From Rhodovulum sp. PH10 (GTDB taxonomy: Bacteria; Pseudomonadota; Alphaproteobacteria; Rhizobiales; Xanthobacteraceae): DNA of 64,000 nt. The DNA lies in the NCBI RefSeq assembly GCF_000293785.1, contig NZ_AKZI01000008.1, forward strand, positions 62,001 to 126,000, given 5' to 3'. Below the pieces are notes generated by a model. That model did not search any database. It was not told the DNA's origin and saw only the letters and a list, made by a program, of their open reading frames with translations. Below, piece by piece: positions 33,349 through 63,608 of this stretch (position 1 is its first letter; each line of letters opens with the position of its first letter). The translations under genes were made by a program, and so were the position numbers.

Positions 33349-37098
<3,750 letters not shown>

Positions 37099-40179: not shown

Positions 40180-40706
40180 ACCTCGTGCGCCGGGATCACG
40201 GCGCCGCTCAACGGGTCGCGCAGGTCGCGGGTCGCGGTGGCGCCGGCGATCACCGCCGCCTTGATGCCGAGATCGATCGCGCCGCGCGCCGTCGCCTCGA
40301 TGCACATGTGGGTCATGAAGCCGGCGAGCACCACCGACGAGCGGTGCAGCGCATGCAGGCGGTCGGCGAGGTCGGTGCTGGCAAAGGCGTTCGGCAGGCT
40401 CTTGGTGAGCACCGGCTCGCCGGGCGCCGGCGCCGCCGGCGCGACGATCTCCACCCCACGGGTGCCGGGGGTGAACGGGCCGCCGCCGCCCTTGCCGTGA
40501 TGCACCACGTGGATCACCGGCACCGCCTCGCGGCGGGCGAGGGCGAGCAGCCGGCCGAGCTCGTCGAGCGCCGGATCGATGCCCGCGAGCGGCAGCGCGC
40601 CGTCGACATATTCGTGCTGGGCGTCGACCACCACGACCACGGCGTCGGCGAGGCGGACCAGGGCCGGCGACGCGCCGGCGAGCTCGAGCAGGGTTTTGGG
40701 GGTCAT
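40104..40706 (-). CDS. isochorismatase-family cysteine hydrolase
   Basis: A 200-residue enzyme with the isochorismatase fold. The triad is visible: Asp in VVVVDAQHEYVDG, Lys in VLTKSLPNAF and Cys in FMTHMCIEATARG preceded by the cis-peptide GFMTH. The family hydrolyses amides and related bonds (nicotinamidase, ureidoacrylate or isochorismate types); the substrate cannot be read from the sequence. ATG 40706 has GTGGAG seven bases upstream; a GTG at 40718 is in frame but poorer. It overlaps the 3' end of the EEP gene. Confidence 0.87.
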   Translation of the reverse strand: MTPKTLLELAGASPALVRLADAVVVVVDAQHEYVDGALPLAGIDPALDELGRLLALARREAVPVIHVVHHGKGGGGPFTPGTRGVEIVAPAAPAPGEPVLTKSLPNAFASTDLADRLHALHRSSVVLAGFMTHMCIEATARGAIDLGIKAAVIAGATATRDLRDPLSGAVIPAHEVHRNALAALADRFATIVSSCDGLSD

Positions 40707-40850
40707 CGCGGTCTCCACTCGGCATCGGCAGGGGCTCGCTGGAGAGATAAGGCGGCAGTGCGCGGTTTGCAGCCGGACATCGGGCCGCGGGCACGCCAGC
40801 GGTCGGGCGCGCGAGGAGAGGCCGAGGGACGGCGAGGAGAAGCGGACCGA

Positions 40851-40885
40851 ACAAACAAAACACCGGAGAACGTCGTTCTCCGGTG
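40851..40885 (-). terminator. strong Rho-independent terminator of the 27-residue gene
   Basis: CACCGGAGAAC and GTTCTCCGGTG form a perfect 11-base-pair stem around a 3-base loop (40861-40885), followed on the minus strand by TTTTGTTTGT. It ends the small transcript that begins upstream of 41033. Confidence 0.85.
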
Positions 40886-40949
40886 CCCCTTTCGATTCGA
40901 CATGAACGCGAGCGTCACCCCTCGATGAACGCCCCAGTGTCGGATCGGG

Positions 40950-41033
40950 TCAGAATGCCCCCAGCACGATCGCCGCGACGAACAAGAACACGACGCCGAC
41001 CGCCAAGGTATTCAGATCGATCGAACGGACCAC
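40950..41033 (-). CDS. 27-residue single-span membrane protein
   Basis: A very short gene: a GTG start at 41033 with GAGGAGA five bases upstream, 27 codons, and TGA at 40950-40952. The protein begins VRSIDLNTLAVGVV (the first residue would be Met) and continues as one hydrophobic helix ending AAIVLGAF. A perfect terminator hairpin lies 65 bases downstream, so a complete small transcription unit is present. I have the impression that short proteins of the pattern LNTLAV-hydrophobic-GAIVLGAF are common in Hyphomicrobiales, but I cannot confirm this without a search. Function unknown; it may regulate a membrane complex as other single-span miniproteins do. Confidence 0.72.
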   Translation of the reverse strand: MVRSIDLNTLAVGVVFLFVAAIVLGAF

Positions 41034-41101
41034 CGATGTCTCCTCATCCAATTTCGCTCGACCCTTTGTAGCAGAACCGGACGTCCGACAGAAGCGAGAA
41101 A

Positions 41102-41123
41102 CATGTTGCGTTGCCGCAACATG
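41102..41123. promoter_or_regulatory. 22-base perfect inverted repeat upstream of the small membrane protein
   Basis: CATGTTGCG and CGCAACATG are perfect 9-base complements around TTGC. It lies 69 bases upstream of the 27-residue gene on its strand, at a suitable place for an operator. No known regulator family is identified for it. Confidence 0.45.
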
Positions 41124-41273
41124 GAGCGGATCGAAAAGACACTGTGGGCAGCCGTGGAGGAGTTTGTCGGCTCCTGGTTCATAATCTTCGCTTATGGGAA
41201 TTCAGCGTCGATTCACTGCACGGTGACCGACACGACACGGCGGTTCACCGGCTTTTCTCGGAGAAAGGAAAAG

Positions 41274-42566
41274 TCAGCCGGCGCGAACGATCGCCTGCTC
41301 GACGAACAGCGCCGCCTCGAGCGCGGCGCGGTCGCCGGCGAAGCGGCCGACCACCTGCACGCCGAGCGGCAGGCCGTCCGGGTCGTCGAGGCCGGGCACG
41401 TTGATGCACGGCGTCCCCATCAGCGTCCACAGCCGGTTGAACACCGAGGTGCCGGTCGAGCCGAGGGTTTGCGGCGCGGCGCCCGGCGCCGAGGGCGTCA
41501 GCAGCACGTCGACCTCCGCCGTCACCTCGGCGAGCGCCTTGCGGGCGCGCTTGGCGGTGCGGCGGGCATCGTCGTAGGCGGCGGGCGTCACCGTCGCCGC
41601 CTCGTCGAGCAGCCGGCGCAGCAGCGGCCGCAGCCGGTCGCGGTGGTGGTCGTACTCGAAGGCGAGCGCGCGATACGCCTCGTAGTCCTGGATCGTCGCG
41701 TGGATGCGGAAGGCGTCCTCGAAGATCGCCGGCAGGGTGATCTCGCGCACGGTCGCGCCGGCCTTTTCCGCTGCCTTCGCAGCGGTCTCGACCGCGCCCT
41801 GCATGGCGGGGCTCGCCTCGGGCCACAGATGGGTGCGCACCAGCCCGATGCGCGGCGCGGCGGGCGTCGCCCGGTCGACCCGGAGATCGCGGCCGGTGAT
41901 CGCGGCGGCGCCGAACGCGGCATCGGCGACCGACACGGCGAAGATGCCGGCGGTGTCGAGCGACCATGAAAAATGCTTGCAGCCGACCATCGGCAGCAGG
42001 CGGAACGACGGCTTGAAGCCGGCGACGCCGCAATAGGCGGCCGGGCGGATCATCGAGCCGCCGGTCTGGGTGCCGATCGCGAGCGGCAGCATGCCGGCCG
42101 CGACCGCTGCCGCCGAGCCGGACGACGAGCCGCCCGGCGTGTGCGCCGGCCGGCGCGGATTCTTGGTGCCGGCCGGATCGAGGAAGGCGAACGGCGTCGT
42201 CACCGTCTTGCCGAGGAGAAGCCCGCCGGCGCGGTCGATCATCGAGACCAGCGCGGCGTCGGCTGCCGGCCGGTGCCCGGCGTAAATGGGCGAGCCGTAT
42301 TCGGTCGGCAGATCGGTGGTGTCGAAGATGTCCTTGATGCCGAGCGGCAGGCCGCGCAGCGGCGCGCGCATCAGCCGGTCGGCGGCGGCCTCGGCGCGCC
42401 GCCGGGTGCGCTCGATATCGAGGGCGGCGAAGGCGCCGATCTCGCTCTCGCACGCCGCGATCGCCTCGGCGCAGCGATCCACCACGGCGGCGGGCGTCAG
42501 CGCGCCGGCCTCGATCTCGTTCGCGAGCTCCAGCGCACGCAGCGGGCGCCCGATGGTGGACGGCAT
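41274..42566 (-). CDS. amidase-signature family hydrolase
   Basis: A 430-residue enzyme of the amidase-signature family with the Ser-cisSer-Lys triad: Lys in LPLGIKDIFDT, the first Ser in GGSSSGSAAAVAAG and the nucleophile in GTQTGGSMIRPA. The rest of the fold is as expected, with a C-terminal LMGTPCINVPGL loop. Members hydrolyse amides and can be indoleacetamide hydrolases, malonamidases or GatA relatives; no gatB or gatC lies beside it, so tRNA amidation is unlikely. GAGGGG precedes the ATG at 42566. It is divergent from the lipoprotein gene at 42745 and is the only gene of its strand here. Confidence 0.9.
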   Translation of the reverse strand: MPSTIGRPLRALELANEIEAGALTPAAVVDRCAEAIAACESEIGAFAALDIERTRRRAEAAADRLMRAPLRGLPLGIKDIFDTTDLPTEYGSPIYAGHRPAADAALVSMIDRAGGLLLGKTVTTPFAFLDPAGTKNPRRPAHTPGGSSSGSAAAVAAGMLPLAIGTQTGGSMIRPAAYCGVAGFKPSFRLLPMVGCKHFSWSLDTAGIFAVSVADAAFGAAAITGRDLRVDRATPAAPRIGLVRTHLWPEASPAMQGAVETAAKAAEKAGATVREITLPAIFEDAFRIHATIQDYEAYRALAFEYDHHRDRLRPLLRRLLDEAATVTPAAYDDARRTAKRARKALAEVTAEVDVLLTPSAPGAAPQTLGSTGTSVFNRLWTLMGTPCINVPGLDDPDGLPLGVQVVGRFAGDRAALEAALFVEQAIVRAG

Positions 42567-42744: not shown

Positions 42745-44283
42745 ATGACGCGCGACGTTCGTTTGTATCTCGTCGGCTCGCTCGTTCTCGTCCTGCTCGC
42801 CGGCTGCGCTCACAACTTCATGAGCGGCCAGCGCGAGCCGTGGCGGCGTGAGGCCGAAGTGCAGTGCCTGCAGTCGGGGGCGGTGACCCCCGGCTCGGCG
42901 GTCGCGCTGCTGTCGCCGATCGACGGGCCCGGCATGTGCGGGGCGGCCTATCCCCTGAAGGTGACGGCGCTCGGCGAGAGCGGGACGCTCGGCTACACCG
43001 ACGAGCCGATCCGGCCGCCGGGTGCGGTTCCGGGCGGCAGCCGTGCCGCGGGTGCCGGCCGGGTGCTGGGCAGCCCGCCCGGTTATCTGCGCGTGCCCGA
43101 CGCGCCGCCGCCCTCCTCGTCCCGGCGCTGGACCTCGCCCGACGCGGGCGGGGCGGGTGCGGGGCAGGGACCGGGATACGGATCGGGGCATGGGCCGGTC
43201 GCGCTGTCGCCGCCCGGCGTCGACGCGCCGCCGCCGGACGCCGCCGGCAGCTACACCCCGCCGATGCCGTCCTATGGCGGGTCGGCGCACGGCCGCCGCA
43301 GCCCGGCCGGCGCGTCGTCGAAGGGCATCGCCCGCAGCGGCCTGCCGCCGGTGTCCGGCGGATCGCCGTCGGGTGCCGGATCGTCCGGCCCCTCGCGCGG
43401 CCCGTTCGACTATTCCGATCCGACCTTCTCGCCGGTGCCGATGCACGAGGCGGTGCCGCGCCGCGGCGCGTCGCGCGCGACCGGCGACCGCGTCGGCTCG
43501 CTGCCGCCTTCGCCCGGCGCGCCGCAGGTGCGGGCCTCGGCGGTGCGCGAGGCGGCGGTGCACGCCGACCCCGACCTCACCCCCGAGTCTGACGGCGACG
43601 AGGTTCCGCCCAGCCTGCCGGCGATGGGCGAGCGGGTGCCGGTGTCGCCGTCGCGTGCGACGCCGCTGTCGACCGCGAGCCTGTCGGTCGCGCTGAAGCC
43701 GGCCGCGACGCTCGCCTGTCCGATGGTCTCCGCGCTCGATCGCTGGGTCGCCGAGGGTGTCCAGCCTGCCGCCCAAAAATGGTTCGGGCAGCCGGTGGTG
43801 CAGATCAAGCAGATCTCGGCCTATTCGTGCCGCGGCATGAACGGCAACCCCCGCGCGAAAATCTCCGAGCACGCGTTCGGCAACGCGCTCGACATCGCCG
43901 GCTTCGTGCTGGCCGACGGCCACGTGATCACCATCAAGGGCTCGTGGCGCGGCACGCCGGAGGAGCAGGGCTTTCTGCACGACGTGCAGGGCTCGGCCTG
44001 CGACATGTTCACCACCGTGCTGGCGCCGGGCTCCAACGTCTTCCATTACGACCATATTCATGTCGACCTGATGCGGCGCTCGAGCGGCCGGCAGATCTGC
44101 CAGCCCAAGGCGATCCCCGGAGACGTGGTCGCCGCGCGTGCACGGGGCGGCAGCTATGCGCGCCGTCACGACGGCGGCGTCACCGGCTCGATCGGCAGCC
44201 GGCGGCACGTCGCCAACCGCCCGGCGGAGCGACGGAACTCCGACGAGCCGGAGCTGCCGGCGGCGGTGGCGGGCGAGGATTGA
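42745..44283 (+). CDS. lipoprotein with extensin-like (Extensin_2) C-terminal domain
   Basis: A 512-residue lipoprotein. The signal ends in a lipobox LLAGC, so Cys21 should be lipidated. A conserved Cys-containing stretch follows (to about 90), then 220 residues of Pro/Gly/Ser-rich disorder, then an extensin-like domain at about 315-455. That domain carries SEHAFGNALDIAGF and HYDHIHVDL, with His/Asp and HxH placed as in zinc DD- or LD-peptidases of the M15 type, and four cysteines. A peptidoglycan role in the periplasm is plausible but not proven for this family. The last 60 residues are basic and low-complexity. Confidence 0.85.
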   Translation: MTRDVRLYLVGSLVLVLLAGCAHNFMSGQREPWRREAEVQCLQSGAVTPGSAVALLSPIDGPGMCGAAYPLKVTALGESGTLGYTDEPIRPPGAVPGGSRAAGAGRVLGSPPGYLRVPDAPPPSSSRRWTSPDAGGAGAGQGPGYGSGHGPVALSPPGVDAPPPDAAGSYTPPMPSYGGSAHGRRSPAGASSKGIARSGLPPVSGGSPSGAGSSGPSRGPFDYSDPTFSPVPMHEAVPRRGASRATGDRVGSLPPSPGAPQVRASAVREAAVHADPDLTPESDGDEVPPSLPAMGERVPVSPSRATPLSTASLSVALKPAATLACPMVSALDRWVAEGVQPAAQKWFGQPVVQIKQISAYSCRGMNGNPRAKISEHAFGNALDIAGFVLADGHVITIKGSWRGTPEEQGFLHDVQGSACDMFTTVLAPGSNVFHYDHIHVDLMRRSSGRQICQPKAIPGDVVAARARGGSYARRHDGGVTGSIGSRRHVANRPAERRNSDEPELPAAVAGED

Positions 44284-61790: not shown

Positions 61791-63608
61791 TCAGCGCCCC
61801 TCGATCTCCTCGCGCAGAATCTCGAGCTCGAGCCAGCGCTCCTCGGCGGTCGCGAGCTCCGTCTCGGCGCTCGCAGCATCCGCCGAAATTTCGTCGAACG
61901 CCGCGCGGTCGCGCGAATAGAGCGACGGGTCGGCGAGCTTCTCGTGCAACGCCGCGATTTTCTTCTGCAGCTCGGCCATCCGCTTCGGCAGCGTCTCGAG
62001 CGCGTGCTTCTCGTTGAAGCCGAGCCGGCGCTTGGCCGCCTTCGGCTCCTGATCACGAACCGCCTTCGGCTCCGGTGGCTCGTCCTTGGTGGCCTTGCCG
62101 GCGGTCGAGCGAGAGAGATCCCGGCCGCGCTGGGCCAGCATGTCGGTATAGCCGCCGGCATATTCGGTCCAGCGGCCGTCGCCCTCCGGCACGATCACCG
62201 CATTGACGATGCGGTCGAGAAAGTCGCGGTCGTGGCTGATCAGCAGCACGGTGCCGGAATAGTCCGCAAGCGTCTCCTCGAGCACGTCGAGCGTGTCGAG
62301 GTCGAGATCGTTGGTCGGCTCGTCGAGGATCAACAGGTTCGAGGGCTTTGCCAGCGCCCGCGCCAGCATCAGCCGGCCGCGCTCGCCGCCCGACAGCGCG
62401 CCGACCGGCGTGCGGGCCTGCTCGGGGGCGAACAAAAAATCCTTCATGTAGCCGATCACGTGGCGCGGCTTGCCGCCGACCGTCACGCTGTCGCCGCGCC
62501 CGCCGGTCAGCGTCGCCGCGACGGTGGCGTTCGGATCGAGGCTTTCGCGGGTCTGCTCGAGGGTCGCGACCTCGAGATTGGTGCCGAGCTTCAGGCTTCC
62601 CTCGTCGGGCGCGAGCGTGCCGGTGAGGAGCGACAGGAGCGTCGTCTTGCCGGTGCCGTTGGGGCCGACGATGCCGATGCGGTCGCCTCGCCGCACGCGG
62701 GTGGAGAAGTCTTTCACGATCGGCCGGCCGTCGTACGCCTTGGACAGTCCGTCCGCCTCGATCACCAGCGCGCCGGAATTGTCCGCTTGCGCGGCGGTGA
62801 GCGCGACGCTGCCGGCGGCGCCGCGAAACTCGCGCCGCGCCCGGCGCAAATCCTCCAGCTCGCCGACCCGGCGCATGTTGCGCTTGCGGCGCGCGGTGAC
62901 GCCGTAGCGCATCCAGTGCTCCTCGGCGACGATTTTTCGGTCGAGCTTGTGCTGCTCGCGCTCCTCCTCGGCGAGGATTTCGTCACGCCAGGTCTCGAAG
63001 GCGTCGAAGCCGCGCTCGATCCGCCGCAGCGTGCCGCGGTCGAGCCACACGGTGACGCGCGACAGGCCGGCGAGGAAGCGCCGGTCGTGGCTGATCATCA
63101 CCATCGCCGCGCTCGAGCTTTTCAGCGTGTCCTCGAGCCATTCGATCACCGGCAGGTCGAGATGGTTGGTCGGCTCGTCGAGCAGCAGGATGTCGGGCTC
63201 GGGCGCCAGCGCGCGGGCGAGCGCGGCGCGGCGCGTCTCGCCGCCGGAGAGCGTCGCGGGGTCCTCCTCGCCGGTCAGTCCGAGCTGCTCCAGCAGAAAG
63301 CGCGCGCGGTGCGGGTCGTCGCCCGGGCCGAGCCCGGCCTCGACATAGGCGAGCGTGGTGGCGGCGCCGGAGAAATCGGGTTCTTGGGGGAGGTAACGGA
63401 CGGTCGCGCCCGGCTGCACGAAGCGGCTGCCGTGGTCGGCCTCGATCTGGCCGGCGGCGATCTTCAGCAGCGTCGATTTGCCGGAGCCGTTGCGCCCGAC
63501 CAGGCACACGCGCTCGCCGGCGCCGACGGTGAGCTCCACGCCGTCGAGCAGCGGCCGGCCGCCGAAGCCGAGGCCGATGTTTTTCAGCTGAAGGAGCGGC
63601 GGCGCCAT
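61791..63608 (-). CDS. uup: ABC-F family ATPase (Uup-like)
   Basis: A 605-residue soluble protein with two ATPase cassettes and no membrane part. Cassette 1: GRNGSGKST, LSGGE, ILLLDEPTNHLD. Cassette 2: GPNGTGKTT, LSGGE, LLILDEPTNDLD. A linker of charged helices lies between, and the last 90 residues form a coiled coil (LPKRMAELQKKIAALHEKLA, then AETELATAEERWLELEILRE), as in Uup. ABC-F proteins bind ribosomes at the E-site or, for Uup, also affect DNA and transposon stability. ATG 63608 overlaps the upstream stop (TGATG), so it is coupled to the UPF0178 gene. Confidence 0.9.
   Translation of the reverse strand: MAPPLLQLKNIGLGFGGRPLLDGVELTVGAGERVCLVGRNGSGKSTLLKIAAGQIEADHGSRFVQPGATVRYLPQEPDFSGAATTLAYVEAGLGPGDDPHRARFLLEQLGLTGEEDPATLSGGETRRAALARALAPEPDILLLDEPTNHLDLPVIEWLEDTLKSSSAAMVMISHDRRFLAGLSRVTVWLDRGTLRRIERGFDAFETWRDEILAEEEREQHKLDRKIVAEEHWMRYGVTARRKRNMRRVGELEDLRRARREFRGAAGSVALTAAQADNSGALVIEADGLSKAYDGRPIVKDFSTRVRRGDRIGIVGPNGTGKTTLLSLLTGTLAPDEGSLKLGTNLEVATLEQTRESLDPNATVAATLTGGRGDSVTVGGKPRHVIGYMKDFLFAPEQARTPVGALSGGERGRLMLARALAKPSNLLILDEPTNDLDLDTLDVLEETLADYSGTVLLISHDRDFLDRIVNAVIVPEGDGRWTEYAGGYTDMLAQRGRDLSRSTAGKATKDEPPEPKAVRDQEPKAAKRRLGFNEKHALETLPKRMAELQKKIAALHEKLADPSLYSRDRAAFDEISADAASAETELATAEERWLELEILREEIEGR

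Follow-up and report, generated by a model that had tools for sequence, protein, structure and literature searches.

A conserved, unannotated 27-residue predicted membrane protein of the Rhizobiales and its candidate control by the carbon-storage sensor PhaR

Sequence comparison establishes that a stretch of only 27 codons in Rhodovulum sp. PH10 (Xanthobacteraceae) is a real, unannotated gene and not a chance ORF, and shows that this gene, equipped with a ribosome-binding site and a terminator of its own, encodes a 27-residue protein of a conserved family. It lies in a window (the whole stretch of DNA that was analysed) of 64,000 nt, corresponding to positions 62,001 to 126,000 of contig NZ_AKZI01000008.1. 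It is probable, if only narrowly so, that this is the first-described order-wide family of membrane miniproteins controlled by PhaR and polyhydroxybutyrate (PHB), with one lineage rewired to stress, and that the nodule-expressed RNA SmelC549/sm4 of Sinorhizobium meliloti is its mRNA. The unit in the window comprises:

40950..41033, minus strand: 27-codon gene with its stop codon, MVRSIDLNTLAVGVVFLFVAAIVLGAF (direct reading, homologue searches)
41039..41045, minus strand: Shine-Dalgarno sequence GAGGAGA, 5 nt from the GTG (direct reading, relatives)
40861..40885, minus strand: intrinsic terminator with an 11-bp stem, a 3-nt loop and a T-rich tail at 40849-40860 (direct reading, terminator scanner)

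On the minus strand, direct reading places the GTG start codon at 41033-41031 and the TGA stop codon at 40952-40950. The terminator begins 64 nt past the TGA, its stem (40885-40875 paired with 40871-40861) being perfect over 11 bp around the loop GAC and followed by TTTTGTTTGTTC; a terminator scanner recovered the same stem, lengthened to 15 pairs. Two terminator-like sites occur within 40700-41300, the second of them inside the gene, while shuffled sequences average 0.6, and a terminator-like hairpin is found no more than 160 nt past the stop at 37 of 77 family loci, compared with 58 of 3081 control windows. GGAGG-like stretches occupy the Shine-Dalgarno position in the relatives examined. 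Both the GTG with GAGGAGA at good spacing and the perfect 11-bp terminator with a T-rich tail, as reported in the preliminary description, are correct on direct reading.

Homology searches indicate that the family is widespread in the window's order and is almost always 27 codons long. A single-sequence search at E<=1 matched 21 of 60 genomes, one of them being the window's; in 22 of its 24 matches the surrounding ORF has a Shine-Dalgarno-like stretch ahead and stops at the same residue or one residue later, while the other two (L015 and L026) lie inside long ORFs and were dropped as chance. Profile A1 (19 sequences) found the family in 197 of 296 genomes of the window's GTDB family at E<=0.1, A2 (36 sequences) in 208 of 397 order genomes at E<=0.01, and the broader A4 (51 sequences) in 229 of 397, the window's own genome being included in the last two counts and some rows of all three alignments coming from genomes that were themselves searched. 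When A2 was applied to a draw from the class, five of the 288 genomes other than the window's were matched, three or more genomes in the draw belonging to the window's order. A column-scrambled profile matched none of 101 order genomes, an empty answer that shows little without a known positive. The family profile matched the window at E 1.7e-10, the sole match at E<=0.1 in its genome and hence a single copy. Two very similar gene copies on separate contigs were observed for L019, L025 and G426 (C27, C58), reflecting either duplication or assembly redundancy.

No family in Pfam-A or NCBIfam exceeded its cut-off for the window's protein or four relatives. YldA (NCBIfam NF041476), likewise a small membrane protein by its title, was rejected as a family at E 0.15 and 12 bits against a cut-off of 45. 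The plasmid collection, searched with the family member from L008, gave no match; peptide strings of the family were absent from the literature searched by sequence string; and the accessible part of a study of Bradyrhizobium sORFs (PMC5082802) contained nothing matching the miniprotein.

Further comparisons were made on 77 loci, namely the window, 40 stretches of its family and 36 from other families of the order, picked for spread and thus non-random. An ATG, GTG or TTG start stands exactly 27 codons ahead of the stop at 67 of these loci; at the other ten the start lies elsewhere, and those examined have one 25-31 codons ahead of the stop. Among the ten same-genus pairs formed by the window and L055-L058 (L059, a sixth same-genus genome, lies outside the set), dN/dS ranges from 0.12 to 0.42 with a median of 0.26, and it is below 1 in at least 87% of 1043 pairs with dS of 0.2-1.5; the share below 1 and the same-genus pairs serve as the summary, since saturated pairs give no usable all-pairs median. 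The shifted frames give dN/dS medians of 1.16 and 1.76 and contain stops in 71 and 10 of the 77 loci, the true frame being free of stops by construction. The preliminary description had presented the unit as a whole gene overlooked for its small size and had named a non-conserved frame in relatives as evidence to the contrary. Its claim is supported, as no such breakdown emerged: purifying selection has preserved reading frame, length and sequence in the relatives.

The protein consists of a short N-terminus, usually with K or R (within the first eight residues at 64 of 77 loci), followed by one hydrophobic stretch running to the protein end; charged residues are absent beyond position 8 at 68 of 77 loci. 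With a mean Kyte-Doolittle value of 2.68, residues 9-27 approximate a single predicted transmembrane helix, which agrees with the earlier proposal of a single-span membrane miniprotein, the membrane location being read from hydropathy only. The best-conserved residues are A21 (72/77), G25 (70/77), F18 (69/77), A14 (61/77) and F16 (60/77). Conservation along one helix face (heptad-like positions 11, 14, 18, 21 and 25) produces a moment peak at 100 degrees; the packing face is only suggestive, because this test is non-significant (p = 0.10).

The gene is flanked in the window by the following neighbours:

41274..42566, minus strand: upstream tandem gene, which we take to be amidase-like, starting at the methionine of MPSTIG; variable neighbour, outside the unit
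42745..44283, plus strand: presumed extensin-like gene; conserved divergent neighbour (46/77 loci, a lower bound)
33349..37098, plus strand: presumed metH; conserved convergent neighbour, with a metF homologue beyond

A metH, metF or ArsR-type methyltransferase gene lies convergently downstream at 51 or more of the 77 loci, an extensin-like gene divergently upstream at no fewer than 46, and one or both at 66 at least; these counts are lower bounds, as some stretches are short, and the names are our own readings of the sequences, taken additionally from annotation for metF and ArsR. This stable neighbourhood is compatible with vertical descent. The conserved neighbours are convergent or divergent to the miniprotein gene and are therefore not on its transcript. 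Where an amidase-like gene precedes the miniprotein gene in the same orientation, as it does in the window (at a distance of 240 nt) and some relatives, a read-through transcript is possible. No recognised neighbour points to a partner for the protein, most neighbour clusters being without annotation.

A candidate promoter, of which the preliminary description had described none, is proposed here from the following elements:

41101..41121, minus strand: PhaR-like box TGTTGCGGCAACGCAACATGT, 88-68 nt upstream of the start (published-site matrix, de novo motif)
41065..41073, minus strand: possible extended -10 element TGCTACAAA, weak and picked by eye from the family pattern, with the start of transcription guessed at about 41058

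A scanner found no sigma-70 consensus match upstream of the window's gene. Another sequence there, TTGCGGCAACGCAA, which fits the FixK2 consensus, was set aside as a FixK/FNR box in favour of the PhaR-like motif, the pattern being present in only 6 of 77 upstreams and at differing distances.

The core site of S. meliloti PhaR has been described as YGCRNYGCR (PMC12542648). A motif found de novo in the family's upstreams, approximately TGYYGCRNTGCAGCA, has this same core; its estimated share is 0.59 of loci, it mostly begins 83-94 nt ahead of the start codon, and its log-likelihood is 310. Six mononucleotide-shuffled sets, given roughly half the number of restarts used for the real upstreams, reached 66-72. 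With a matrix built solely from the 16 published sites of EMSA-bound S. meliloti promoters, the window's box scores 12.7 and is the third best site in the 64 kb, its core differing at one base from the consensus. Scores of at least 8 were reached in 28 of 77 upstreams versus 62 of 8213 control windows from the same loci, the controls being mostly coding and the loci related by descent. When four orthologues (two from Sinorhizobium, one from Rhizobium and one from Shinella) were added, 32 of 81 upstreams reached this score, whereas 300 column-permuted matrices averaged 1.06 such upstreams and never exceeded 6. Sites at this threshold occur in 10 of 41 loci of the window's family and 18 of 36 from the order's other families; the 49 of 77 loci that remain below it (31/41 and 18/36, respectively) count against the PhaR reading. 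An extended pattern, GCRNYGCANCRNCGAATTT, occurs once per genome, just upstream of the miniprotein gene, in six of ten genomes and is absent from the other four, while the reversed pattern is found in none; because it was derived from several of the same upstreams, this count shows uniqueness per genome and not frequency. Of the five class-level matches, which fall outside the order, three (L199, L200 and L203) have the box, located between -92 and -88 and scoring 14.8-15.9, and L201 and L202 have none (-11.0 and -6.7).

Two further observations concern the boxes of the window. A perfect 8-bp inverted repeat, CATGTTGC-N6-GCAACATG at 41102-41123, overlaps the PhaR-like box; no repeat of this form was noticed among the displayed upstreams of relatives. 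The best matrix site of the window lies at 47981-48001 (18.0), about 100 nt upstream of a plus-strand gene with a probable start at 48103; this gene, presumably CBS-domain-like, is a second candidate PhaR target.

Phasin loci served as a positive control: 26 of 30 carry a site of at least 8 within 500 nt ahead of the domain match. Those without one are L188, L191, L194 and L195, of which L195 comes from the window's genome; the other phasin locus examined in that genome, L180, has sites of 27.8 and 24.9. The miniprotein sites score below most phasin sites. The window's genome encodes PhaR (PF07879, 5.6e-30) along with phasins, and PhaR (PF07879) is present in 329 of 397 order genomes. With profile A4, 222 of these genomes have both PhaR and the miniprotein, 7 the miniprotein only, 107 PhaR only and 61 neither (Fisher 9e-19, a genome-level test that ignores descent); the corresponding A2 counts are 202, 6, 127 and 62. 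By GTDB family, the miniprotein occurs in 32 of 44 PhaR-bearing families versus 1 of 8 without PhaR (p 0.002, counted by eye). The 107 PhaR-bearing genomes lacking a detected miniprotein count against the PhaR reading. From motif, matrix and co-occurrence, direct control of the gene by PhaR is strongly suggested for much of the order. The box with its YGCRNYGCR core is shared with the PhaR (AniA) regulon, the S. meliloti site lying near the position of the distal phaP1 site; a difference is that the miniprotein gene is absent from one PhaR target table of the published study (PMC12542648). A literature search for PhaR together with a small membrane protein and PHB returned nothing relevant, judging from the hits as listed.

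The promoter appears to have changed in one part of the window's family. The EcfG site of Rhizobium etli has been given as GGAAC-N16-CGTT (PMC3892343). This exact pattern precedes the gene at 7 of 77 loci (L064, L065, L087, L090, L093, L094 and L135) versus 12 of 8181 controls, EcfG-type sites with a spacer of N16-17 at 11 versus 22 of 8181, and the relaxed form GGAAC-N15-18-YGTT at 14 versus 30 of 8181 control windows; the 150 nt preceding the window's gene contain no exact match to the pattern. Nine loci of genera g16, g24, g25 and g26, all in the window's family, have the relaxed form 58-76 nt upstream and no PhaR-matrix site reaching 8, which strongly suggests that in this clade the gene has passed to an EcfG general-stress promoter. 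At L063, L064 and L081, among the other five matches, the EcfG-like GGAAC...YGTT overlaps the PhaR-like box, which may be chance or may represent an intermediate between the promoter types.

Control by PhaR together with the phasins could alternatively mean that the product is a phasin-like micropeptide coating PHB granules, its hydrophobic stretch embedded in the granule surface. Such a role would account for the PhaR-like box, the similar boxes at phasin loci of the same genomes and the co-occurrence with PhaR; however, the stretch is uniformly hydrophobic and long enough for a bilayer, the boxless clade retained the gene under a stress-type promoter, and no PHB gene was recognised among the clustered neighbours (most clusters being unannotated). 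Granule coating is thus considered unlikely.

A tblastn search with a rhizobial version gave weak matches (E 0.7-5) in six Sinorhizobium, Shinella and Rhizobium records. Orthologues were located between a DMT transporter gene and metF in S. meliloti Ak57 and Rhizobium leguminosarum, at sites where no gene is listed in a gene table known to be incomplete, and the two further records retrieved carry no annotation. The two orthologous peptides read MGLTHSLNVLMISAAFAFVAVMLFV and MGLTQSLNVLLVSAAFAFVLSMLFI, and PhaR-matrix sites score 16.1 at -86 and 18.1 at -84, respectively. The Rhizobiaceae members L210-L213 have 25 residues and lack the otherwise conserved G25, two of them having been recognised by their position beside metF. 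The record of L210 (CP090106.1), titled plasmid pSymB of S. meliloti Ak57 (3.72 Mb), looks mislabelled, because metF and its neighbours there are chromosomal in strain 1021.

Published transcripts bear on this locus. The sRNA candidate sm4 of S. meliloti was assigned to a 541-nt region after SMc01844 (orientation > > <) and seen on microarrays under a condition marked "S", taken here as high salt (PMC2573895). SmelC549, equated with Sm4, spans 2371597-2371855 (259 nt) with a 5' end confirmed by RACE (PMC2873474), and a review lists its expression in nodule zones (PMC7143759). SMc01845 is reported as a lytic transglycosylase (PMC4941405), and the gene before the DMT transporter in L210 is likewise one. 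Like SmelC549/sm4 (SMc06721), the L210 locus has 541 nt between the DMT transporter gene and metF, with a 25-codon ORF of the family inside, and a 259-nt transcript would end at the foot of the terminator hairpin if its 5' end lay 25 nt before the ATG, a placement guessed from the promoter. On this match, which draws on the gene order of strain Ak57, region length and transcript length and not on the strain 1021 sequence, the RNA is probably the mRNA of the S. meliloti orthologue, although it has been published as a non-coding trans-sRNA; the literature retrieved gives no function for SmelC549 or SMc06721. In addition, SEP6 of S. meliloti has been described as a protein of fewer than 30 residues with a predicted helix, supported by Ribo-seq and western blot, found mostly in the membrane/ribosome pellet and conserved in Hyphomicrobiales (PMC10117765). 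It resembles the miniprotein in size, helix, pellet fraction and conservation, and, by this comparison of descriptions only, may be a family member, which is a guess.

The catalogued trans-sRNA status of the 259-nt transcript with its RACE-confirmed 5' end, as well as its long 3' part, would also fit a transcript that acts mainly as a regulatory small RNA, with the ORF secondary or dual-function. What is conserved across the order, however, is the peptide, its length, the Shine-Dalgarno sequence and the stop. Folding of two transcripts is barely more stable than that of shuffled sequences (z -1.15 for the window, -1.57 for S. meliloti), Rfam at gathering scores gave no match at the gene in seven loci (only RNase P, elsewhere in L132), and a published RNA-based search, in its accessible part, placed relatives of SmelC549 only in the Sinorhizobium/Ensifer group. 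A mainly RNA-based function is therefore judged improbable.

Fixed length and strong conservation would also suit a small CydX/KdpF-like protein that serves as a constitutive structural subunit of a membrane complex, respiratory or other, with the box being incidental, and other small subunits of about 27 residues are known. Yet no recognised conserved neighbour encodes such a complex (most clusters being without annotation), and the box-to-gene distance stays constant while the upstream neighbours change, which makes this explanation similarly doubtful. A type I toxin-like hydrophobic peptide restrained by antisense RNA, suggested by the size, the single hydrophobic stretch and the stress-type promoters, which resemble those of such toxins, is highly improbable, as type I toxins are usually patchy and fast-evolving, whereas this gene is single copy in the window's genome, keeps its neighbours across the order, is conserved in sequence and has a short, unstructured leader with a strong Shine-Dalgarno sequence.

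The reading preferred here, held with slightly more confidence than doubt, is that of a monocistronic inner-membrane miniprotein controlled by carbon storage or stress and packing against a membrane partner. A role in regulating a transporter, kinase or respiratory complex, put forward in general terms in the preliminary description, is possible, and the promoter evidence offers a narrower lead towards carbon storage and stress. Control of the candidate promoter by PhaR is well supported by the sequence evidence, and sequestration of PhaR by accumulating PHB is a model confirmed for S. meliloti (PMC12542648). In the proposed mechanism, PhaR would occupy the miniprotein promoter until stored PHB draws it off; PHB build-up would thereby sequester PhaR and open the promoter, yielding a short mRNA with a strong Shine-Dalgarno sequence, and the peptide would be made under carbon surplus or stress. 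It is predicted to insert in the inner membrane with its N-terminus inside, given the early K or R and the lack of charge after residue 8. There, A14, F16, F18, A21 and G25 might mediate packing onto a helix within a larger membrane complex, possibly a transporter, a respiratory enzyme or an envelope enzyme, and let the peptide adjust that complex. Support thus changes along the chain: as far as the mRNA it comes from sequence, insertion is a prediction, and the partner and its effect are what we infer.

The finding adds a deeply conserved protein family, skipped by gene finders. If the preferred reading holds, this family would be tied to a carbon-storage sensor. The reading would also make a messenger of one of the small RNAs catalogued in a model symbiont, and it would turn the question of what the PHB state tells the membrane into one that can be tested with a single small gene.
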